Source of the DNA: Nocardioidaceae bacterium
Lineage (GTDB): Bacteria; Actinomycetota; Actinomycetes; Propionibacteriales; Nocardioidaceae
DNA length: 64,000 bases
Assembly: GCA_018672315.1 (NCBI GenBank)
Contig: CP076053.1
Location: 2,963,827 to 3,027,826 of the forward strand
Direction: 5' to 3'
This document shows, in pieces, positions 4,975 to 33,292 of the stretch. A model generated the notes under the pieces. The model ran no database searches. It was not told the DNA's origin and worked only from the letters and a program-made list of their open reading frames with translations. A program made the position numbers and the translations under genes. Position 1 is the stretch's first letter; each line of letters opens with the position of its first letter.

Positions 4975-5259
4975 TCAGACCTCCAGGCCGCGGTGGCCGG
5001 CCGAGCCGGGGACGACCGCGAGGTGCGGCGCACCCGGGGCCGCGGAGGTCGCGACGGTCGGATCGACACCGCTGCCGCGCGCGACGATCTGCCCGCGGTA
5101 GGCCAGCACCGACTCGACCAGCATGGCGAGGTCCTCGCGCACGACGTACTTCTTGCCGTCGACGAGGGTGACGACCGTGTCGGGCGTGGCGTCGACGCGC
5201 TCGATCAGGTCGGCGTTCAGCACGAACACCGATCCCGAGAGTCGTGTCAGGGCAATCAT
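4975..5259 (-). CDS. flbD: FlbD-family flagellar protein
   Basis: 94 residues from ATG 5259. The first 65 residues match the small FlbD family (MIALTRLSGSVFVLNADLIE ... TVVTLVDGKKYVVREDL), usually found beside motA. This FlbD is unrelated to the Caulobacter transcription factor of the same name; its molecular role is not settled. The Gly/Ala-rich last 25 residues are an extension. First gene of flbD-motA-motB-fliL and has its own FliA-type promoter about 90 bases upstream. Confidence 0.85.
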   Translation of the reverse strand: MIALTRLSGSVFVLNADLIERVDATPDTVVTLVDGKKYVVREDLAMLVESVLAYRGQIVARGSGVDPTVATSAAPGAPHLAVVPGSAGHRGLEV

Positions 5260-5347
5260 GGGCACCGTCCTTGTGCGTGGTCCCGTGCGCTCGGCGACGC
5301 GCGGCGAGCGGACGGTGACCGACCCTCCGTGGTCGGTCCCCCCTCTC

Positions 5348-15020: not shown

Positions 15021-15410
15021 TCATCGTCCGATCTGCAGGGCGGCGTCGTAGTCGGCCCGGGCGGTCTGGGTGACGCTGACCTGGGCCTGGTAGCCACGCT
15101 GCGCGACGATCAGCGCTGTCATCTGGGTGTTCATGTCCATGGACGTCATCCGCACGTAGCCGTTCTCGTCCGCCAACGGGTGGTCGGGGTCGTGCACCAT
15201 GCGGCCCTCGCCGTCGCCCTGCTGGATCGAGCGCACCGCGACACCGCCCTCGGGGGCGGTGACGACGTCGACGAGCTGCTCGCGGAAGGCCTCCTCGTCG
15301 GTGCGGCGTACGACGTTGGCGTTCGCGATGTTGTGGCCGAGCGCGTCGAGCCAGGTCTGGTGGGCACCCAGCGCCGAGTTGGCGATGGCGAGCACGTCGA
15401 AGCCGCCCAT
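15021..15410 (-). CDS. flgC: Proximal rod protein FlgC
   Basis: 129 residues. The N-terminus ([20 protein letters not shown], then HNIANANV) has the rod signature; the C-terminus has [25 protein letters not shown], typical of FlgC. The ATG overlaps the flgB stop by one base and fliE starts right after its stop. Slightly shorter than enterobacterial FlgC. Confidence 0.94.
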
Positions 15411-15763
15411 CAGGAGGCCACCGTCTTCAGCAGCTCGAAGCGGTTGGTGACGGCGCGGGTGAGCATGGCGTACTGGTACTGGCTCTGCATCGCGGCGAGC
15501 GTCTCCTTGCGCAGGTCGACGGAGTTGCCGGTGCCGTCGACGGGGGTGTCGGTCAGGCGGGTGCTGGCGGTGACGGTGTCGTTGCGCGGGTCGCCGTCGG
15601 CAAGCGCGGAGCGCAGCGAGGACTCGAACTCCACGGAGACCGCACGGAAGCCGGGGGTGTCCAGGTTCGCGATGTTGTCGGCGGTGACGCGCTGGCGCAG
15701 CGAGACGGCGTCGAGCGCCGAGCCGAGGGTCGCCATCACGGCGTCGTTGGCTGAGAACGGCAC
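15410..15763 (-). CDS. flgB: Proximal rod protein FlgB
   Basis: 117 residues from GTG 15763, which has AGGAGG 6 bases upstream. Signature VTADNIANLDTPGFRAV near residue 30 and a C-terminal helical block (YQYAMLTRAVTNRFELLKTV). The long 5' region (15764-15925) carries a TAAAG-type motif and no FliA-type site. First gene of the long basal body operon. Confidence 0.94.
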   Translation of the reverse strand: MPFSANDAVMATLGSALDAVSLRQRVTADNIANLDTPGFRAVSVEFESSLRSALADGDPRNDTVTASTRLTDTPVDGTGNSVDLRKETLAAMQSQYQYAMLTRAVTNRFELLKTVAS

Positions 15764-15885
15764 GTCGGACCTCCTGGTCGATGCGGGGCAACGAGGGGGC
15801 CGGTCCGTCGGCCAGGGGTGTGAGCGATCCTGCTCAGGTGACATCTTGGAGAGGGGGCGGGGTCACCGCCGGGGATTCACGAAAG

Positions 15886-23655: not shown

Positions 23656-24765
23656 TCAGCGGAGCAGCGAGAGTACGCCCTGCGAGGCCTGGTTGGCCTG
23701 GGCGAGCATCGCGGTGCCGGCCTGGCTGAGGATCTGGGAGCGCGTGAACTCCATCATCTCCGTGGCCATGTCGGTGTCGCGGATCCGGGACTCAGACGCC
23801 GAGAGGTTCTCGACCGACACGTTCAGGTTGTTGATCGTGTGCTCGAGGCGGTTCTGCGAGGCGCCAAGGTTGGCACGCGCCTCAGAGATGTCGGCGATCG
23901 CTGTGTCGATCACCCCGATGGCCGCTTGGGCGGCGGAGTGGGACCCAAAACTGATCGCCGCAGTCGAGGCACTGGTGGTGTCGAAACCATCGCCGTCGGA
24001 GGTGACGGCGACGGTACCGCCACTCTTCGACACGATCTCCAGCTGACCGTTCGCGTTTACCGATGCGGTGAAGGTGTTGCTGAAGTCGCTACTCGCGTTC
24101 AAGTTGTCAACCAACGCCCCGAGTGAGGCAGAGTCACCGGCGACGGCGGTGTAGTCAACCGTGGAGGTGCCGTTGGTGATGCTGATGACGTCGCCCGCGG
24201 CGATGTCGCTCGTGTTGACGTTGTTGGTGCCCTTCGCCGACGAGGTCAAGGTGTCCGCGATGACGGAGACGTCGGTCAGTGCGACGTTGATTCGGCTGTT
24301 GGCGTCACCATCGGCACCCACCTGGAAGTTGAGCGAGGCCGAGTCGCCGTTGAGCAGGTTGGTGCCGTTGAAGTTCGTGCTCTCCGAGATGCGCGAGAGC
24401 TCCGCCTGCAGCTGTGTGACCTCCGTCGTGATGGCGGCGCGAGCCTCGGTGTTGTTGGTGTCGTTGGATGCCTGCACTCCCAGGTCACGCATGCGCTGCA
24501 GGATCGCGTGAACCTCGGTGAGAGCGCCCTCGGCGGTCTGCACGACGGAGATGCCGTCCTGCGCGTTGCGGGAGGCCTGCTTCAGGCCACCGACCTGCGA
24601 GCGCAGGCCCTCGGAGATCGCGAGACCGGCGGCGTCGTCGGCGGCGCGGTTGATGCGGAAGCCGGACGACAGCTTCTCGAGCGACTTGCTCATGTCGCTC
24701 TGCGTCATCGAGAGGTTGCGGTAGCTGTTGAACGCCTCGATGTTCTGGTTGATGCGAAGACCCAT
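23656..24765 (-). CDS. fliC: Flagellin (C; most fliD-proximal)
   Basis: 369 residues. N-terminus MGLRINQNIEAFNSYRNLS and C-terminal ...ILSQAGTAMLAQANQASQGV are the conserved flagellin D0/D1 helices. The central insert (about 165-285) is Ser/Thr/Asp/Gly-rich with GDVISITNGTSTVDYTAVAG, a typical outer-domain sequence. A good RBS (AGGAGGG) precedes ATG 24765. A FliA-type promoter and an ACGGA hairpin lie in the leader. One of three canonical flagellins in tandem. Confidence 0.96.
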   Translation of the reverse strand: MGLRINQNIEAFNSYRNLSMTQSDMSKSLEKLSSGFRINRAADDAAGLAISEGLRSQVGGLKQASRNAQDGISVVQTAEGALTEVHAILQRMRDLGVQASNDTNNTEARAAITTEVTQLQAELSRISESTNFNGTNLLNGDSASLNFQVGADGDANSRINVALTDVSVIADTLTSSAKGTNNVNTSDIAAGDVISITNGTSTVDYTAVAGDSASLGALVDNLNASSDFSNTFTASVNANGQLEIVSKSGGTVAVTSDGDGFDTTSASTAAISFGSHSAAQAAIGVIDTAIADISEARANLGASQNRLEHTINNLNVSVENLSASESRIRDTDMATEMMEFTRSQILSQAGTAMLAQANQASQGVLSLLR

Positions 24766-24799
24766 GGTGATTCCCTCCTGGAATTCAAGGTCGGACTCC

Positions 24800-24817
24800 G
24801 AGCCCATCCGTGGGCTC
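24800..24817 (-). promoter_or_regulatory. Candidate CsrA site hairpin in flagellin C leader
   Basis: Minus strand GAGCCCACGGATGGGCTC folds with a 7-bp stem and ACGGA at the loop. It starts about 7 bases after the predicted transcription start. A second ANGGA (AGGGA, 24772-24776) overlaps the Shine-Dalgarno, as in CsrA-controlled flagellin mRNAs. Confidence 0.5.
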
Positions 24818-24830
24818 CTGTGCCGGGACC

Positions 24831-24856
24831 TTCGGCCCGGGCTTCCCTCACCTGAG
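24831..24856 (-). promoter_or_regulatory. FliA-type promoter of flagellin C
   Basis: Minus strand CTCAGG (CTCA 24853-24856), 16 bases, GCCGAAGG (GCCGAA 24831-24836). Predicted leader is about 60 nt. A TAAAG-type motif lies further upstream (24865-24876). Confidence 0.7.
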
Positions 24857-24899
24857 ATATCGAGCGCAGACCTTTACCTTCCGGCCACTCGAGACAGCA

Positions 24900-24940
24900 G
24901 AACGCCCCGCGATGTCCGATACGGACAGCGCGGGGCGTTC
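24900..24940 (-). terminator. Terminator after flagellin B
   Basis: 12-bp stem GAACGCCCCGCG (24900-24911) with its complement at 24929-24940; the loop also holds a short GTCCG/CGGAC pair. It follows the flagellin B stop (24948) by 7 bases. Confidence 0.78.
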
Positions 24941-24947
24941 GCCGTGA

Positions 24948-25766
24948 TCAGCCGTTGAGCAGTCGCAGCACGTCCTGCGGCGCCTGGTTGGCCTGCGCGA
25001 GCATCGCGGTGCCGGCCTGGCTGAGGATCTGGCTCTTGGTGAACTGCGTCATCTCCAGCGCCATGTCGGTGTCCCGGATGCGGGACTCCGAGGCCGAGAG
25101 GTTCTCCACCGCGACGTTCAGGTTGGCGATGGTGTGCTCGAAGCGGTTCTGCACCGCACCGAGGTTGGCCCGCACGGTCGACACCGCGGTGATGGCGTCG
25201 TCGAGCGTGCCCATGGCGGTCCGTGCGTTCGCGTCGCTGAGCAGGTCGACCGCGCCGATGCCCAACGAGGTGGTGTCGACCCCGTCGATGTCGATGGTGA
25301 TCGAGTCCGAGGCCTCGGAGCCCACCTGGAAGACGGCGGAGAAGGTGCCGTCGAGCAGGCGTACGCCGTTGAAGTTCGTCGCCTGGCTGATGCGGTCGAG
25401 CTCGGCCTTGAGCTGCTGCGCCTCGGCGTCGAGCGCGTTGCGCGAGGCCTGGTTGTTCGACCCGTTCGCCGACTGCACCGCGAGGTCCCGCATGCGCTGC
25501 AGCATCGAGTGCACCTCGGTGAGCGCACCCTCCGCGGTCTGGGAGACCGAGATGCCGTCCTGCGCGTTGCGCGCCGCGACCTTCAGGCCGCCGATCTGCG
25601 TACGCAACCCCTCGCTGATCGCGAGACCCGCGGCGTCGTCGGCGGCACGGTTGATGCGCAGACCGCTGGAGAGCTTCTCCAGCGACTTGCTCATCTGCCC
25701 CTGCGTGACCGAGAGGTTGCGGTAGCTGTTGAAGGCATCGATGTTCTGGTTGATGCGAAGACCCAT
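24948..25766 (-). CDS. fliC: Flagellin (B; short form without outer domains)
   Basis: 272 residues, the shortest flagellin here. N-terminal MGLRINQNIDAFNSYRNLSV and a C-terminus with DTDMALEMTQFTKSQIL are canonical. Between the D1 helices there is only a 60-residue linker (GVRLLDGTFSAVFQVGSEAS ... GIGAVDLLSD, in pieces), so the filament surface domain is minimal. Start ATG 25766 has AAGGA 11 bases upstream. The leader shares the ACGGA hairpin but lacks a CTCA-N16-GCCGAW promoter; a TAAAG motif is 175 bases upstream. Confidence 0.95.
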   Translation of the reverse strand: MGLRINQNIDAFNSYRNLSVTQGQMSKSLEKLSSGLRINRAADDAAGLAISEGLRTQIGGLKVAARNAQDGISVSQTAEGALTEVHSMLQRMRDLAVQSANGSNNQASRNALDAEAQQLKAELDRISQATNFNGVRLLDGTFSAVFQVGSEASDSITIDIDGVDTTSLGIGAVDLLSDANARTAMGTLDDAITAVSTVRANLGAVQNRFEHTIANLNVAVENLSASESRIRDTDMALEMTQFTKSQILSQAGTAMLAQANQAPQDVLRLLNG

Positions 25767-25803
25767 GGTGCACTCGTCCTTGGAATCGGTTGTCCATCGG
25801 GAC

Positions 25804-25821
25804 GAGCCCGTCCGTGGGCTC
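25804..25821 (-). promoter_or_regulatory. Candidate CsrA site hairpin in flagellin B leader
   Basis: Minus strand GAGCCCACGGACGGGCTC: 6-bp stem with ACGGAC loop, differing at one position from the hairpin before flagellin C. AAGGA (25777-25781) overlaps the Shine-Dalgarno region. Confidence 0.5.
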
Positions 25822-25929
25822 ACATTCGGAGGCGGTCCGTCCTGGACCACCGGGTGATGACGCGAGTCTCGTGGACCGGAAGGGTCTGCGTGAGAAAACG
25901 CCGAACTCGACCCATTCGCGACGACCGAT

Positions 25930-25943
25930 CCGGCGAATCTTTA
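25930..25943 (-). promoter_or_regulatory. TAAAG-type motif upstream of flagellin B
   Basis: Minus strand GGTAAAGATTCGCCGG. Shares AAAGATTCGCCG with the region upstream of cheA and GGTAAAG with the sigma gene and flagellin C. Confidence 0.42.
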
Positions 25944-25964
25944 CCTCCGCCGCGTTTCGACCAC

Positions 25965-25999
25965 GTCTGCTGCAGCGCCCGGTCAGCCCTGCAGCAGAC
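25965..25999 (-). terminator. Hairpin spanning the flagellin A stop codon
   Basis: 11-bp inverted repeat GTCTGCTGCAG (25965-25975) / CTGCAGCAGAC (25989-25999). It encloses the stop codon (25983-25985) in its loop. It may end transcription or stabilise the 3' end; no U-tract follows. Confidence 0.4.
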
Positions 26000-27161
26000 G
26001 CAGCACGCCCTGCATCGACTGGTTCGCCTGCGCGAGCATCGCGGTGCCGGCCTGGCTGAGGATCTGGCTGCGCGTGAAGCTGGTCATCTCCATCGCCATG
26101 TCGGTGTCGCGGATCCGGGACTCCGACGCGGACAGGTTCTCCACCGCGACGTTCACGTTCGCGATGGTGTGCTCGAAGCGGTTCTGGATCGCACCGAGGT
26201 CCGCGCGCACCGTGGACACCTTGGTGATGGCGGTGCTCAGGCTGTTCAGCGCAGCGGTCGCACCGTCGGCCGAGGAGATGTCGAGCGTGTCGATGCCCAT
26301 CCCGGCGGTGTTCATGGCGTCGTACGTGGGCGCCGCCGCCGAGGCCGCGCCAGCAGTGGCGGTGGGCGTGCCTGCAGCGATGCCTCCGGTGACCACCGGG
26401 GCGGTGGCGCCGGGCCCACGGCTCGTGCTGGTCACCACCAGAGAGTTCGCGGTCTCGTCGTAGTCGAAGCGGTAGTCCTCGTCGAGGCCACCCCGCGCGC
26501 TGTCGTACGCCGCCTGGAGCGCCGTCGCCACCGTGTCGCCGTCGGCGCCGGCCAGGTTGCGGCTCACGGAGACAGCGACCCCGTCGATCGTGAACGTCAG
26601 CGGGGTGCCCGAGTAGTCGTTCTCCAGGTCCACCGTGTTCGCGAACGTCGCCGGCGTCGCCGCCGGCACCTTCAACCCGATCATGATCTCGATGCTGTCG
26701 GCGGCGTCCGAACCGACCTGGAAGCTCGTGGAGGTGAACGTGCCGTCCAGCAGCTTCACGCCGTTGAACGACGTCGAGGAGGAGATGCGGTTCAGCTCCT
26801 CCTTCAGCTGCTCGGTCTCCGCCTGCAGCGCGTCCCGCGACGCCTGGTTGTTCGACCCGTTCGCCGACTGCACCGCCAGGTCGCGCATCCGCTGGAGGAT
26901 CGCGTGCACCTCGGTGAGCGCACCCTCTGCCGTCTGCACGACCGAGATGCCGTCCTGCGCGTTGCGCGCCGCGACCTTCAGGCCGCCGATCTGCGTACGC
27001 AACCCCTCGGAGATCGCGAGACCCGCGGCGTCGTCGGCGGCACGGTTGATGCGCAGACCGCTGGAGAGCTTCTCCAGCGACCGGCTCATGTCGCCCTGCG
27101 TCGCCGAGAGGTTGCGGTAGCTGTTGAAGGCGTCGATGTTCTGGTTGATGCGCAGACCCAT
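25983..27161 (-). CDS. fliC: Flagellin (A; with central insert)
   Basis: 392 residues. N-terminal MGLRINQNIDAFNSYRNLSA and C-terminal ILSQAGTAMLAQANQSMQGV are near-identical to flagellin B. The central region (about 165-320) contains an inserted outer domain with GTPLTFTIDGVAVSVSRNLA and an Ala/Thr/Gly-rich part. A FliA-type promoter precedes it and ACGGA lies in the leader. The ends look recently homogenised with flagellin B (shared protein and DNA). Confidence 0.95.
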   Translation of the reverse strand: MGLRINQNIDAFNSYRNLSATQGDMSRSLEKLSSGLRINRAADDAAGLAISEGLRTQIGGLKVAARNAQDGISVVQTAEGALTEVHAILQRMRDLAVQSANGSNNQASRDALQAETEQLKEELNRISSSTSFNGVKLLDGTFTSTSFQVGSDAADSIEIMIGLKVPAATPATFANTVDLENDYSGTPLTFTIDGVAVSVSRNLAGADGDTVATALQAAYDSARGGLDEDYRFDYDETANSLVVTSTSRGPGATAPVVTGGIAAGTPTATAGAASAAAPTYDAMNTAGMGIDTLDISSADGATAALNSLSTAITKVSTVRADLGAIQNRFEHTIANVNVAVENLSASESRIRDTDMAMEMTSFTRSQILSQAGTAMLAQANQSMQGVLRLLQG

Positions 27162-27210
27162 GGGGTGTCCTCGGAGGTCCCGGCCGTCCCTGGAGGTGGA
27201 TGGATGGGCT

Positions 27211-27222
27211 CCCGTCCGTGGT
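27211..27222 (-). promoter_or_regulatory. Candidate CsrA motif (ACGGA) in flagellin A leader
   Basis: Minus strand GACCACGGACGGG places ACGGA at 27215-27219, about 54 bases before the ATG. Only 2-3 stem pairs flank it, weaker than the other two flagellin leaders. Another ANGGA (AGGGA, 27187-27191) lies closer to the start. Confidence 0.35.
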
Positions 27223-27237
27223 CGCTCGTACGCACCC

Positions 27238-27263
27238 ATCGGCGGCGCGAGCTCGCACCTGAG
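27238..27263 (-). promoter_or_regulatory. FliA-type promoter of flagellin A
   Basis: Minus strand CTCAGG (CTCA 27260-27263), 16 bases, GCCGATGGG (GCCGAT 27238-27243). A GGCGAAT/ATTCGCC inverted repeat abuts the -35. Confidence 0.7.
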
Positions 27264-27305: not shown

Positions 27306-28796
27306 TCAGCGGAGGAGGGACAGCAGCTGCTCCGGCGTACGCAGGGCATGCGCGAGCATCGCCGACGCGACGTCCGCCCGCAGCTGCGCCCGCACCAGGT
27401 GTGACGCCTCGAGCGCGTGGTCGGCGTCGCAGATGCGGCTCTCAGCCGCGATGCTCGCGCCGAGACTCGCGCCGAGGCGACTGGCGGTGTGTCCGAGCCG
27501 GTTCTCGACCGCGCCGAGGTAGGCACGAGCCAAGGACAGGTCGTCCAGCACCGCGTCGATCGAGGCGATCAGACCGCCCTGTGGTGGCGTGACCGGCACC
27601 GTCGGCGCTCCGGGATCCTCCGGCGACTGCGGGGCCGGCGGCGGGTTCTCGGGCGGGGGCGTCGCGTCCGGCAGGGGGTCCGGCTGGGTCCGCACCGGCG
27701 TTGGGGCGGACGCCGGGGTGAAGGACACCTGCACCTCCTGCGCCGTGACGCCGGGACGGCCGCCGGTGCCGCCGATCACCCCGACGACTCCGCCGATCAG
27801 ACCGCCCAGACCTCCGTTGCCCGGACCTCCGTTGCCCGGAGGCACGACGACGCCCGCTCCCGTGAAGACGGCATCGACCCCGTCGGCCGAGACCGTGACG
27901 GCGCCGGCTCCGAGGGCGCCGTCGAGAGCCTGCTGCAAGCTCGCGAGCCGGGTCTCGGCCGAGGTGCCGCCCGCGAAGACCACCGTCGCGAGGTCGAGAG
28001 CGGCACCGCGGTAGGTGATCGTGCCGTTGAGCCGGTCGTAGCTGTCGGGATCGCGCAGGTCCACACCCGAGATCCGCACCGTGGAGCCGGTCGTCGTCGT
28101 TGCCGCGGTCGACGTCGCCGTCAGCACGGGGTTCGTGGCGGCCGGCTCCTCCTGCTCCGTCGACGCCGCCGGTGCTGCGGTCGCCGTCGGCCCACCCGGC
28201 TCGGCCGGGCTGTGGGGCTGCACCGCTGCGGGCGCGTTGGTGGCAGCAGGGGAGAGGGTGCCGGTCGCGCCGACGTGGTCTCCGGCCAGAAACGCTGCGA
28301 GCACCGTCAGGCCCGGCGTACGCATCAGCAGGTGGTCGTCGGCGGCCGGCCCGACCTGCAGCGAGGACGTCGACCCGTCGAGCATCCGGCGTGCGGGTCC
28401 GCTGACGGCTGCGAGGGTCCGTCCGGCCTCGGCACGCAGCATCTGCAGCTCGGTGTCGATCGTGGCGACCGCCTGGGGGCCGAGCGCGTCGGCGTTGCCG
28501 CGCCGAACGGCCAGGTCACGCATCCGCTGCACGAGCTGGTGGACGGAGCCGAGGGCGCCCTCGGCCGTACGCACCATGCCGATGCCGTCCTGCACGTTGC
28601 GGAGGGCGACCCTGCTGCCCCCGATGGTCGAGCGCAACCCCTCGGACACGGCGAGACCGGCGGCGTCGTCGGCGGCCGTGGCGATGCGCAGCCCCGACGC
28701 GAGCCGTGCCGCGGCGACCTGACGGTCGGACGCATGGGCCCCGAGTGCGTGGGATGCCGCCCACGCAGGTGCGTTGTGGCGTACCCCGAGCAGCAC
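27306..28796 (-). CDS. Diverged flagellin-like protein with Pro/Gly-rich central region
   Basis: 496 residues from GTG 28796 (start uncertain; the reading frame is open further upstream). Residues ~10-130 match the flagellin D0/D1 helix, including ADDAAGLAVSEGLRSTIGGS and NVQDGIGMVRTAEGALGSVH. The last 80 residues (LSLARAYLGAVENRLGHTAS, then ASAMLAHALRTPEQLLSLLR) match the C-terminal helix. It lacks the usual MGLRINxN start. The 300-residue centre is Ala/Thr/Pro/Gly-rich with runs such as GNGGPGNGGLGG and PPPENPPPAPQSP. Could be a minor flagellin or a filament junction component. Confidence 0.75.
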   Translation of the reverse strand: MLLGVRHNAPAWAASHALGAHASDRQVAAARLASGLRIATAADDAAGLAVSEGLRSTIGGSRVALRNVQDGIGMVRTAEGALGSVHQLVQRMRDLAVRRGNADALGPQAVATIDTELQMLRAEAGRTLAAVSGPARRMLDGSTSSLQVGPAADDHLLMRTPGLTVLAAFLAGDHVGATGTLSPAATNAPAAVQPHSPAEPGGPTATAAPAASTEQEEPAATNPVLTATSTAATTTTGSTVRISGVDLRDPDSYDRLNGTITYRGAALDLATVVFAGGTSAETRLASLQQALDGALGAGAVTVSADGVDAVFTGAGVVVPPGNGGPGNGGLGGLIGGVVGVIGGTGGRPGVTAQEVQVSFTPASAPTPVRTQPDPLPDATPPPENPPPAPQSPEDPGAPTVPVTPPQGGLIASIDAVLDDLSLARAYLGAVENRLGHTASRLGASLGASIAAESRICDADHALEASHLVRAQLRADVASAMLAHALRTPEQLLSLLR

Positions 28797-28950
28797 GGCT
28801 GCCTCCCCCCGCGGAGGACGGCGTACGCCGGTGCGCCTCGCTGGACGTCCCCGGGTGCAGCAACGACTTGGCGTACGCGGGGTCATGGCCGGGCCTTGCC
28901 GGTCCAGCCAGCCGGCCGGCTGGCCAGTCAGTCATCCAGCCAGTCAGCCG

Positions 28951-29108: not shown

Positions 29109-29966
29109 TCAGCCCGCGGCGTTCACCGAGGAGTACGCCTGCCGCACCCCGGCCGCAGCCCCGGCGGCGTGGCGTGCCGCGACGGCGGCGACGTACGCGT
29201 CCTTGCGGCGCGCGGCGCATCCGTCGGGCCGCTGGTGGGGGATCACGAGCCAGGGCTCGAGAGCGGTCGCGAGGGCGTGTCGGATCAGGGCGAGCGCCTC
29301 GGCGCGCATCTGGGAGACCCGCGACTCGGTCACGTCGAGCTCGGCCGCGATCTCGGCCATGGGGCGCTCGGCGAGGAAGTACTGCTCCACCACCGTGCGC
29401 AGCCGCTCCGGCAGTTCTGCGATCGCCTCGTGGAGGTAGGCCACCTGCTCGCCTCGCAGGAGCACCTCCTCGGGCGCGGGGGCGTTGTCCACGAGCAGCA
29501 GCTCGACGGGCGATCCCTCGCCGGCCTGCAGGCTCATCACCTGGGCGCGAGCGGTGTCCTCGTCGTTGGCGAGCACCTCCTCCGCGCTCAGGCCGAGGGC
29601 CGAGGCGACCTCTGCGGTCGAGGCGGGCCGTCCGAGTGCCGTCGCGAGCTCCGAGCGCGTACGGTCCAGGTCGCGGGCGCGGCGACGCACCGACCGGGAC
29701 GCCCAGTCGACGCTGCGCAGCTCGTCCAGCACGGCGCCCCGGATGCGGGTCGCGGCGTAGCGGGCGAACGGCACCCCGCGACTCCCGTCGAAGGACCTGT
29801 CGGCACTGACCAGGGCGGTCAGTCCGGCGGAGGTCAGGTCGTCGCGGCTGACGTGGCTCGGGACGCGACCCATCGTCTCGCGGACGACGTGGCCGACCAG
29901 CGGCATGTGCGCGGTGACCCGGCAGCGCTCGGCGGCGTCCTCGTCGGCGCGGGAGGTGATGTCCAC
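29109..29966 (-). CDS. fliA: FliA/WhiG-family RNA polymerase sigma factor (flagellar sigma)
   Basis: 285 residues from GTG 29966; the frame stays open upstream but without a good RBS. Region 2 (PSHVSRDDLTSAGLTALVSA, VPFARYAATRIRGAVLDELR), region 3 (GRPASTAEVASALGLS) and region 4 (LPERLRTVVEQYFLAERPM, EIAAELDVTESRVSQMRAEA) are all present, in the group 3 (sigma-28) pattern with no region 1.1. It should drive the CTCA-N16-GCCGAW promoters in this window. Its C-terminal ~50 residues (RRKDAYVAAVAARHAAG) extend past region 4. A TAAAG motif is about 50 bases upstream. Confidence 0.88.
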   Translation of the reverse strand: MDITSRADEDAAERCRVTAHMPLVGHVVRETMGRVPSHVSRDDLTSAGLTALVSADRSFDGSRGVPFARYAATRIRGAVLDELRSVDWASRSVRRRARDLDRTRSELATALGRPASTAEVASALGLSAEEVLANDEDTARAQVMSLQAGEGSPVELLLVDNAPAPEEVLLRGEQVAYLHEAIAELPERLRTVVEQYFLAERPMAEIAAELDVTESRVSQMRAEALALIRHALATALEPWLVIPHQRPDGCAARRKDAYVAAVAARHAAGAAAGVRQAYSSVNAAG

Positions 29967-30008
29967 GGGAGCGAGATTCGTGCGGACGTCATCGTTTTCG
30001 TGGCGGAA

Positions 30009-30022
30009 CCGGCTTTTCTTTA
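30009..30022 (-). promoter_or_regulatory. TAAAG-type motif upstream of the sigma factor gene
   Basis: Minus strand GGTAAAGAAAAGCCGG, about 45-55 bases upstream of the GTG start. Same form as the motifs before flgB and flagellin B. Confidence 0.42.
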
Positions 30023-30053
30023 CCTCGGCACGGAGTTCTCCTCGGGCGAATGA

Positions 30054-30079
30054 CTCAGGTGGGCCATGGCCCGGCCGAT
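30054..30079 (+). promoter_or_regulatory. FliA-type promoter of flgN-flgK-flgL-fliW
   Basis: CTCAGG (CTCA 30054-30057), 16 bases, GCCGAT (30074-30079). The flgN GTG follows 94 bases later, in the divergent region facing the sigma gene. Confidence 0.68.
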
Positions 30080-30173
30080 CGGCTTCCTGTCGACGTCCGA
30101 TTCGTCTGTTACCGACGCCGTCCGCCGGATCCCGGCGCACCCGCACTCACCACTCGAGCCCAGGAGGACCATC

Positions 30174-31974: not shown

Positions 31975-32861
31975 TGGGCATCTCTCGCGTCACCCACACC
32001 ATGCTCACGCAGCGGTCGGTCGACCGTCTGCAGGGCAGCCTCGGTCGACTCGCCGACGCCCAGGAGAAGCTGTCCACCGGCAAGGTGCTCAACCGGCCCT
32101 CGGACTCCCCGGCCGACACCGCTGCTGCGATGCGGCTGCGCGCCGGGCTCCGGCAGCAGGCGCAGTTCGAGCGCAACGCCTCCGACGGCCTCGGCTGGCT
32201 GGCGCAGACCGACTCCACCCTGCAGTCCATGACGAGCCAGCTGCAGCGCGCCCACCAGCTGGCCATCGCGGGCGCGAACACCGGCGGTCTGTCGGTGGCG
32301 GGCCGTGAGGCCATCGCCACGGAGCTCGAGGTGCTCAGGAGCAGCCTCATCGCCACCGCCAACCAGACCTACCTCGACCGCCCGGTGCTGGGGGGCACCA
32401 CCGCCGGTGGCGTCGCGGTGAACCCCGACGGCAGCGTCGCGGGCGACAGCGGAGCCGTCGTCCGCACCATCGGCGAGGGGATCAAGGTGCGCGTGAACCT
32501 CGACGCGACTCAGGTCGTCGGCCCGGGCGGGCAGATCTTCACCCAGCTCGCCGCCCTGGCCAACGCCGTCCGTGCCGGCGACACCACCGCCATCGGCGAG
32601 GGCATCACGGCCGTCAAGGCCGGGGTCGAGCGTGTCGTCACCGCCCAGGCCGACGCGGGCACGCGGTACGCCCAGGTCGAGAAGGCATACCAGCAGTCCA
32701 CCGACATCGAGATCTCGCTGCGTACGCGGCTCTCCGACATCGAGGACGCAGATCTCGCCGAGGCTTCGATCGAGGTCAGCACCCAGGAGGTGGCGTACCA
32801 GGCCGCCCTCGCCTCCACCGCACGGGTGATCCAGCCCAGCCTGTTGGACTTCCTGCGATGA
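31974..32861 (+). CDS. flgL: Hook-filament junction protein FlgL
   Basis: 295 residues; the ATG overlaps the flgK stop by one base. N-terminal GISRVTHTMLTQRSVDRLQG and KLSTGKVLNRPSDSPADTAA show flagellin-like D0/D1; central NQTYLDRPVLGGT is FlgL-typical; the C-terminus is a helix (DADLAEASIEVSTQEVAYQA). Second junction ring (HAP3). Confidence 0.94.
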   Translation: MGISRVTHTMLTQRSVDRLQGSLGRLADAQEKLSTGKVLNRPSDSPADTAAAMRLRAGLRQQAQFERNASDGLGWLAQTDSTLQSMTSQLQRAHQLAIAGANTGGLSVAGREAIATELEVLRSSLIATANQTYLDRPVLGGTTAGGVAVNPDGSVAGDSGAVVRTIGEGIKVRVNLDATQVVGPGGQIFTQLAALANAVRAGDTTAIGEGITAVKAGVERVVTAQADAGTRYAQVEKAYQQSTDIEISLRTRLSDIEDADLAEASIEVSTQEVAYQAALASTARVIQPSLLDFLR

Positions 32862-33292
32862 TGACTGCCGCCCCAGCCCACCACACCGCCACCGAGGGAG
32901 CCGACGTGGACCTGCCCGTGATCGAGCTCGCCCGGCCGATGCCGGGCTTCCCCGAGCACCGCCACTTCACCCTCGTGGCGCTCGACGACGCGAGTCTCCT
33001 GTGCAGCCTGCAGTCGCTGGAGGAGGAGGCCCTGCGCTTCCTGGTCGTGCCGCCGCACCCCTTCTTCCCCGAGTACGCCCCCGTGATCGACGACGAGACC
33101 GTCGGCGAGCTCGGCGTGCAGCGCGCCGAGGACGTGATGCTGCTCCTCGTGGTCACGGCCGGCCAGTCGCTCGCGGAGACCACCGTCAACCTGGCGGCAC
33201 CCATCGTCGTGAACGCCTCGACGATGCAGGCCGCGCAGGTGATCCTCGAGGACCCCGCCTGGCCGGTGAAGGCGGGACTCGCCACGCCGTGA
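32858..33292 (+). CDS. fliW: Flagellar assembly factor FliW
   Basis: 144 residues. Core motifs FPEHRHFTLVALDDASLLCS, LQSLEEEALRFLVVPPHPFF, and C-terminal LAAPIVVNASTMQAAQVILE are the FliW pattern. FliW binds flagellin and CsrA; when flagellin is exported, free FliW sequesters CsrA and allows more flagellin translation. The ATG overlaps the flgL stop by 4 bases; csrA follows 50 bases later. Confidence 0.94.
   Translation: MMTAAPAHHTATEGADVDLPVIELARPMPGFPEHRHFTLVALDDASLLCSLQSLEEEALRFLVVPPHPFFPEYAPVIDDETVGELGVQRAEDVMLLLVVTAGQSLAETTVNLAAPIVVNASTMQAAQVILEDPAWPVKAGLATP

Follow-up and report, generated by a model that had tools for sequence, protein, structure and literature searches.

The leaders of three flagellin genes (flaC, flaB and flaA) in a 64,000-nucleotide stretch of the Nocardioidaceae bacterium contig CP076053.1 (positions 2,963,827 to 3,027,826; hereafter the window), together with those of flbD-motA and flgB, were read as two-site targets of CsrA, whose binding would block translation and be relieved by FliW. 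Sequence comparison supports this reading, and we put its probability at roughly 0.82. An earlier note on the same DNA had already proposed CsrA/FliW control of the flagellins, and its proposal is supported, with CsrA binding and antagonism by FliW as the predicted steps. According to the proposed mechanism, a CsrA dimer would dock first on the exposed ANGGA hexaloop of an upstream hairpin (P1) and would then bind a second ANGGA, which overlaps the Shine-Dalgarno sequence. A weaker helix (P2), between the leader block GAC(T/C)(C/T)(A/G) and the start codon with codons 2-3, would enclose this second site in its loop. Once bound, CsrA would block the ribosome and probably also stabilise P2, so that flagellin would not be made, and FliW would release CsrA once flagellin had been exported and FliW was free. 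The same CsrA would read the two-hairpin leaders of flbD-motA and flgB, which would place one post-transcriptional brake on several flagellar operons.

The P1 hairpin of flagellin leaders

Flagellin starts were set at the MGLRIN motif (flaC 24765, flaB 25766, flaA 27161, all on the minus strand). The loop A lies 46 nucleotides (nt) before the ATG in flaC (24811) and 49 nt before it in flaB (25815), so the ACGGA hairpins that the earlier note had placed about 45 bases before these starts were borne out, as was the second ANGGA it had seen at each Shine-Dalgarno (AGGGA at -11 in flaC and AAGGA at -15 in flaB). For flaA, the ACGGA expected about 54 bases upstream is present at -58, but the weaker stem ascribed to it was an understatement, because only two contiguous pairs are left. 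In the whole 3.6-megabase (Mb) genome, exact matches to the pattern GAGCCCACGGANGGGCTC are confined to the flaC and flaB leaders, one in each; with up to three mismatches the pattern was no commoner than in the reversed control (88 vs 99). Hexaloops with ANGGA in the window numbered 3 against 1 in the reversed control at a stem of at least 6, and 8 against 2 at a stem of at least 5.

Among the 197 genomes of the family survey, 63 have csrA and 61 match Flagellin_N, 59 of them strongly (E value about 1e-40 or better). csrA was found in 58 of the 59 strong-flagellin genomes, and five genomes (G067, G072, G099, G112 and G142) had csrA without a strong flagellin; G067 and G072 were tallied as flagellin genomes but match only FlgL-like sequences, and their leaders are outside the set. 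The resulting 69 leaders comprise the three of the window's flagellins, 58 obtained from stretches of 60 genomes and eight, of Nocardioides, Actinokineospora, Actinoplanes and Actinophytocola, obtained from nine named loci. L048 and L073 (from the genomes of L016 and L015) and L018 and L020 (near-identical to L017) were retained in the P1 stem and RNAfold counts (n = 69) and left out of the codon, alignment, promoter, second-site and tree counts.

All 69 leaders carry CC (once TC)-ANGGAN-GG (once GA) at -38 to -67. ANGGA was imposed by the search, so the informative part is the flanks and the stem. At least four contiguous P1 pairs were present in 66/69 leaders, compared with 25/2320 shuffled leaders. 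Among 54 distinct hairpins, 89.2% of alignment cells were paired, and both sides had changed in 54 cells vs 12.9, which none of 500 shuffles reached; double changes occur in six of the seven pairs, and the pairing was lost when the partner was shifted by a single base. The arms of P1 vary while the loop is constant, which argues for an RNA hairpin that is read at its loop. Comparison with relatives, a check that the earlier note had suggested, thus strongly favours its reading: the ANGGA hexaloop is kept and the stem arms change in concert. When whole leaders were folded with RNAfold, P1 had a probability above 0.5 in 63/69, the others being L022, L054, L075, L076 and the window's own flaB and flaA. 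The consensus context of P1, CANGGANG, is that of the high-affinity CsrA hexaloop in PMC4894983 (this paper and the others cited below were accessible in part, unless their text as a whole is named).

A sigma28-like promoter, TCA(A/G)-N13-19-CGA(T/A/C), from which transcription would start, lies upstream of the hairpin in 58/65 leaders (shuffled 135/3250). Immediately downstream of it, the inverted repeat forms a near-perfect palindrome, as would suit a DNA operator bound by a transcription factor instead of an RNA hairpin. An operator would keep its arms, however, whereas here the arms vary with compensation around a fixed ANGGA loop; the loop is asymmetric and matches the CsrA motif, which is found again at the Shine-Dalgarno, and the hairpin lies at varying distances from promoter and start. 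We therefore regard an operator as very improbable. The second ANGGA lies at most 24 nt from the start in 62/65 flagellin leaders, a count that has no control and concerns Shine-Dalgarno sequences, which are themselves GGA-rich. In the flagellin-csrA loci, hairpins with a stem of at least 5 numbered 65 vs 33 in the reversed control; 25 of them lie scattered outside the flagellin leaders, so no further target is claimed in these loci.

Beyond the family, the leader covariance model matched 52/394 genomes of the class. A flagellin with an E value of at most 1e-28 was present in 44 class genomes, and the model match abutted the flagellin domain in 38; as 15 of these 38 belong to the family of the window and were used for model building, the fair figure is 23/29 outside the family (misses: G218, G225, G271, G304, G533 and G540). 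There were 14 matches without such a flagellin, six of them with csrA and eight with neither, the latter all at an E value of 9e-4 or weaker. Then, 47 flagellin-like genes outside the family were read directly: 27 had at least four contiguous P1 pairs (shuffled 25/2320), and 40 had at least 5/7 pairs around the ANGGA loop, a cut without a shuffle figure. Genes below 5/7 were those of L123, L143, L150, L152, L155 and L157 and the second gene of L146, and a flagellin start was not recognised in the class-set stretches L154, L156, L159 and L160. Counted from the loop, the third pair is mismatched (A or G facing A) within an otherwise good stem in six stretches (L133, first gene, L135, L136 and L138-L140).

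csrA was found in 41/44 class flagellin genomes and not found in G540, G533 and G219. Among the complete flagellin genomes of the class sample, G540 (L152) alone lacks csrA, and it has no hairpin, which makes it a single natural negative control and nothing more; G533 (63% complete) has a flagellin, no csrA found and a weak hairpin. Many of the leaders come from related genomes, which would fit a short leader shared merely by ancestry and without function, but we consider this extremely improbable in view of the covariation around a fixed loop, the preservation of P1 in 27 and 40 of the 47 genes outside the family (according to the cut) though the rest of the leader has diverged, and the absence of such a hairpin in G540.

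Within the window, the flaA leader (27161-27262, minus strand) has kept a sigma28-like promoter next to an ANGGA site that is nearly stemless, so the flaA copy may escape CsrA. RNAfold prefers another fold for flaB, and its P1 is thus clear in the sequence yet not the predicted fold: at 25777-25823 (minus strand), CTCGTCC of the P1 3' arm is complementary to GGACGAG of the Shine-Dalgarno, and RNAfold favours that pairing. According to this folding, flaB might possibly form a switch.

Two-hairpin leaders of flbD-motA and flgB

A perfect P1-type hairpin found by scanning the window drew the flbD-motA leader into the set. From the csrA-bearing genomes, 46 were chosen for the FlbD and FlgB search; all 46 gave matches, and 30 loci were read for each gene (29 relatives and the window). 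The flbD leader carries CCANGGANGG in 30/30 loci (shuffled 10/1500), a sigma28-like promoter in 29/30 (shuffled 72/1500) and, in exact form, a GCAC-ANGGA-GTGC hairpin around the Shine-Dalgarno in 24/30 (shuffled 0/1500). Its first hairpin covaries, with 35 double-change cells vs 11.7, reached by 0/500 shuffles.

For flgB, whose frame in the window is presumed from its sequence to be that gene, the first hairpin H1, GAGCANGGAN(N)GCTC, was present in 27/30 loci (shuffled 0/1500), the window being one of the misses, and the second, H2, GCC(G)ANGGA, in 30/30 (shuffled 8/1500). ANGGA hairpins in tandem were found in 27/30 loci, that is in 27/29 relatives, with a median GGA-to-GGA spacing of 22 nt (range 20-29, 28 loci), and a sigma28-like promoter was found in 24/30 (shuffled 84/1500).

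In flgB the sites are placed some 40 and 63 nt upstream of the start, off the Shine-Dalgarno, and this arrangement would also suit a CsrA that binds but acts mainly on messenger RNA (mRNA) stability or as an activator, as for E. coli flhDC, at least for flgB. Stabilisation of flhDC is cited in PMC2587704, and CsrA of Bacillus subtilis limits the hag transcript level besides translation (PMC6529632). In flagellin and flbD, on the other hand, the second site overlaps the Shine-Dalgarno, which is the known layout for repression (PMC7652899, PMC4894983), and we consider a main action on stability or activation unlikely.

When the whole genome was scanned with the leader model R1, flaC (69.1 bits) and flaB (47.6 bits) came first, followed by six weak sites including flaA. 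The hairpin-only model R2 gave flaB, flaC, a site at 568506 (E value 0.14) and 13 weaker sites including flaA; those of the 13 that were read lie inside long open frames. No further convincing CsrA target of this genome emerged from the R1 and R2 scans, which have misses: the flbD hairpin, found in the window-only search, is absent from the R2 genome list.

Several observations count against repression of all these leaders by CsrA. The window's own flaA has almost no P1 stem and lacks both an ANGGA in a hairpin loop and an ANGGA overlapping the Shine-Dalgarno, and in whole-leader folds the P1 probability was 0.00 for its flaB and 0.01 for its flaA. The two flagellin ANGGA sites are a median of 34 nt apart, more than the 18-21 nt of PMC4894983. 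The flbD Shine-Dalgarno hairpin and both flgB hairpins showed no covariation in the loci read, being nearly invariant, and all the flbD and flgB genomes read carry csrA, which leaves no csrA-free control. Finally, the hairpin is present while csrA was not found in G219 (80% complete) and in the flagellin-bearing G014 (97% complete, 8% contamination, 520 contigs); these two genomes point the opposite way from G540 unless their csrA lies in missing sequence.

Complementarity between the leader and the start codon region

Between P1 and the Shine-Dalgarno, the alignments show a conserved block, GAC(T/C)(C/T)(A/G), that is complementary to six bases, U-G of the start codon and the four that follow. 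P2 was scored in an alignment (A3) of 62 leaders that leaves out flaA and flaB of the window and L037: 95.8% of the cells of the five pairs form, and there were 22 double-change cells vs 9.0, a level reached by 0/500 shuffles. Rows L056 and L063 are misplaced in A3 and are uncorrected in these covariation figures, where C once faces A. L056 was placed by hand in both tree and pair counts, L063 in the later one only. After hand correction of these two rows, the telling pair combined in 54 scored leaders as T-AGT in 31, C-GGT in 17, the wobble T-GGT in 6 and C-AGT in 0. Pairing over at least five contiguous bases was found in 60/64 family leaders and 21/41 class leaders.

The first codons of flagellin are unusual in the same place. 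Codon 2 is AGT in 33/65 flagellins, compared with 5/1533 serine codons later in the same genes, and codon 3 is CTT in 39/65, compared with 12/1225 later leucine codons. A or T in the third position was found in 61/65 flagellins at codon 2, 39/65 at codon 3, 9/65 at codon 4 and 1/65 at codon 5, and codon use from codon 4 to codon 10 looks normal. On the protein tree, from which L025, L029 and L035 are missing (CsrA was not found in their stretch), supported branches provide seven independent contrasts in codon 2: the leader changes along with the codon in 3-4 of them, stays the same in 3-4 and changes against it in none.

Alternatively, P2 may be no helix at all: GACYC might serve another purpose in the leader, and the AT-richness of codons 2-3 might have ordinary start-region causes. 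Part of the evidence does speak against P2. The tree test is not significant (p 0.125 to 0.25, too small a sample), and two of the five covariation measures, the number of pairs with double changes (2 vs 1.1) and that of pair types, were ordinary (69 and 85 of 500). The alternative codon 2, GGT, is not rare (306/1216 glycines), and the codon control was made of later codons of the same flagellins instead of the starts of other genes. The best P2 pairing reached p<0.05 in 37/64 family and 7/41 class leaders, and RNAfold gave P2 a probability above 0.5 in 42/69 leaders. No P2 is seen in L133 and L142 when their second codon is TCG or GCA, and uncompensated leaders occur with GGC (L137, L141) and AGC (L071). 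Against a motif of other use stand the leader C that faces a codon-2 A in 0/54 scored leaders (again with the two misplaced rows corrected), the third-position A/T excess that ends after codon 3, and leaders that look compensated: GGCTT with AGC (L074), AGCCC with GGT-TTC (L126, L128), TCCCA with GGA (L129, L131) and GCCC with GGC (L140), although most of these cases are weak singly (p 0.026 to 0.21). We hold the absence of a helix to be rather doubtful. P2 is likely to form in the cell within the family, and outside it P2 is unproven.

In L142, three flagellin genes have GCA as codon 2 and no P2, and their P1 hairpins are perfect. An alternative pairing of the P1 5' arm with GACTC was dropped, as by eye it fits the GGAGTCC class only.

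Relation to known systems and the flagellar island

Control of flagellin by CsrA and FliW has been established for B. subtilis and Campylobacter jejuni. In C. jejuni, the flaA leader likewise presents ANGGA in two loops, the first being a hairpin hexaloop and the second covering the ribosome-binding site; compensatory changes back the hairpins, FliW is the antagonist (a role predicted here), and many flagellar-gene mRNAs are named as potential CsrA targets (PMC4894983). That leader differs in being 45 nt long, with two hairpins and GGA motifs 21 nt apart, while here some 46 nt separate the first hairpin from the start, the median distance between the sites is 34 nt, and base pairing with the start codon and codons 2-3 would close a long loop that contains the second site. 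The hag leader of B. subtilis also has two CsrA sites, BS1 upstream and another at the Shine-Dalgarno, and its Hag-FliW-CsrA system shares the flagellin target, adjacent fliW and csrA and the antagonist FliW, again predicted in the present case (PMC6529632, PMC8523840, PMC7652899). In their accessible parts the B. subtilis accounts concern hag, whereas here flagellin, flbD-motA and flgB leaders all have paired sites.

A further case is another actinobacterium, Kineococcus radiotolerans, with csrA in its motility island (PMC2587704, 2008). CsrA was suggested to regulate its flagellin because 9/12 bases match hag BS2. As far as the accessible part of that paper goes, the proposal concerns one gene and a Shine-Dalgarno site only, with no upstream hairpin, leader family or other operon, and fliW is unmentioned in the text of the paper. 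Zere et al. 2015 (PMC4682653) later included Actinobacteria in a list of phyla in which FliW may act on CsrA. We found no published description of the hairpin leader and its conservation, of the helix at the start codon or of the leaders of flbD and flgB, nor any paper on CsrA, Nocardioides and flagellin together, in a search made largely without subscription papers. The bench work on CsrA-FliW that we found concerns Bacillus, Clostridioides and Campylobacter.

The kind of control is thus known, and the class-wide leader, the probable start-codon helix and the predicted reach over several operons appear to be new. Across the GC-rich Gram-positive class, the sequence evidence points to the same switch on flagellin and probably on at least two more flagellar operons. 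The 2008 paper reported, in the part accessible, no FlgM in the flagellated Actinobacteria then sequenced (PMC2587704), and CsrA-FliW is a candidate answer to how late gene expression is coupled to export there without FlgM; P2, if real, would explain the sharp oddity of flagellin codons 2-3. Only tentatively do we go further, to a picture that may well not hold: CsrA-FliW might be the main export checkpoint of flagellated actinobacteria without FlgM, with CsrA acting through two-hairpin leaders of three classes to restrain the operons for flagellin, motor and rod simultaneously and locking in flagellin a helix that buries the start codon, so that RNA pairing would dictate the first codons.

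Both proteins are encoded in the window with fliW directly upstream of csrA, and the earlier note's placing of them 6-9 kilobases (kb) away in the same island was confirmed by Pfam, at 5.7 to 8.6 kb from the flagellin starts. Residues 2-79 of CsrA align with the CsrA chain of the solved entry 5dmb and FliW with its FliW chain; from this alignment, the CsrA of the window appears to have a C-terminal extension of the kind contacted by FliW. L4 and R44, which presumably serve RNA binding, are kept in 7/7 aligned CsrA. CsrA was found in 67/70 and FliW in 66/70 stretches searched. Of the 67 CsrA read, 59 are 77-91 residues long, and the range is 77 to 160 apart from two short ones; thus, of the 40-residue tail that the earlier note had called unusual, residues 53 to about 77 are common to relatives and the last approximately 22 are indeed extra. 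The two short ones (L082 and L083, from G142 and G112) end at 58 and 57 residues, with no FliW in the stretch and no flagellin found, and likely represent a stage of a decaying system.

The window is part of one 3.6-Mb contig, for which the closest named relatives found belong to Nocardioides, and carries a flagellar island (Table 1), in which Pfam confirmed three flagellins, fliD, a sigma factor of probable FliA type, flgN, flgK, fliW and csrA. Rfam families gave 0 matches in the window at the gathering threshold.

Table 1 Positions in the window of the leader elements and genes discussed
Feature	Position	Strand	Evidence or remark
flaC, flagellin	23656..24765	-	Pfam Flagellin_N and Flagellin_C
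P1 hairpin of flaC, GAGCCC-ACGGAT-GGGCTC, CsrA-type hexaloop	24800..24817	-	26.8 bits, hairpin-only model R2; covariation
P2 5' strand of flaC (GACCT)	24788..24792	-	complementary to 24763-24759
P2 3' strand of flaC, last base of start codon and GGTC of codons 2-3	24759..24763	-	
Second ANGGA (AGGGA) of flaC, overlapping Shine-Dalgarno	24772..24776	-	
flaB, flagellin	24948..25766	-	Pfam
P1 hairpin of flaB, 8-base-pair stem, ACGGAC loop	25802..25823	-	30 bits, hairpin-only model R2
Second ANGGA (AAGGA) of flaB, at Shine-Dalgarno	25777..25781	-	
flaA, flagellin	25983..27161	-	Pfam
ACGGA of flaA, degenerate P1	27215..27219	-	16.5 bits, leader model R1
Second ANGGA (AGGGA) of flaA, 30 nt before ATG, away from Shine-Dalgarno	27187..27191	-	
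flbD, followed by an open frame read as putative motA	4975..5259	-	flbD: Pfam PF06289, E=3.3e-25; motA by eye from its start
P1-type hairpin of flbD-motA leader, GACCGACC-ACGGAG-GGTCGGTC	5317..5338	-	23 bits; window scan, perfect 8 base pairs
Shine-Dalgarno hairpin of flbD, GCAC-AAGGACG-GTGC, second ANGGA in loop	5262..5276	-	
flgB (presumed), GTG start	15410..15763	-	
H2 hairpin of flgB leader, GGCCG-ACGGAC-CGGCC, 5 base pairs	15798..15813	-	45 nt before flgB
H1 hairpin of flgB leader, here GAGC-AGGATC-GCTC	15822..15835	-	one base short of ANGGA
Sigma-70-family factor, regions 2, 3 and 4, probable FliA/sigma28	29109..30146	-	Pfam; FliA name inferred from context
fliW, predicted CsrA antagonist	32858..33292	+	Pfam FliW PF02623, E=3e-34; closest solved FliW 5dmb
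csrA, 100 residues	33343..33645	+	Pfam PF02599, E=2.4e-24

A fourth, divergent flagellin was recognised by Pfam at 27306-28886, upstream of flaA.

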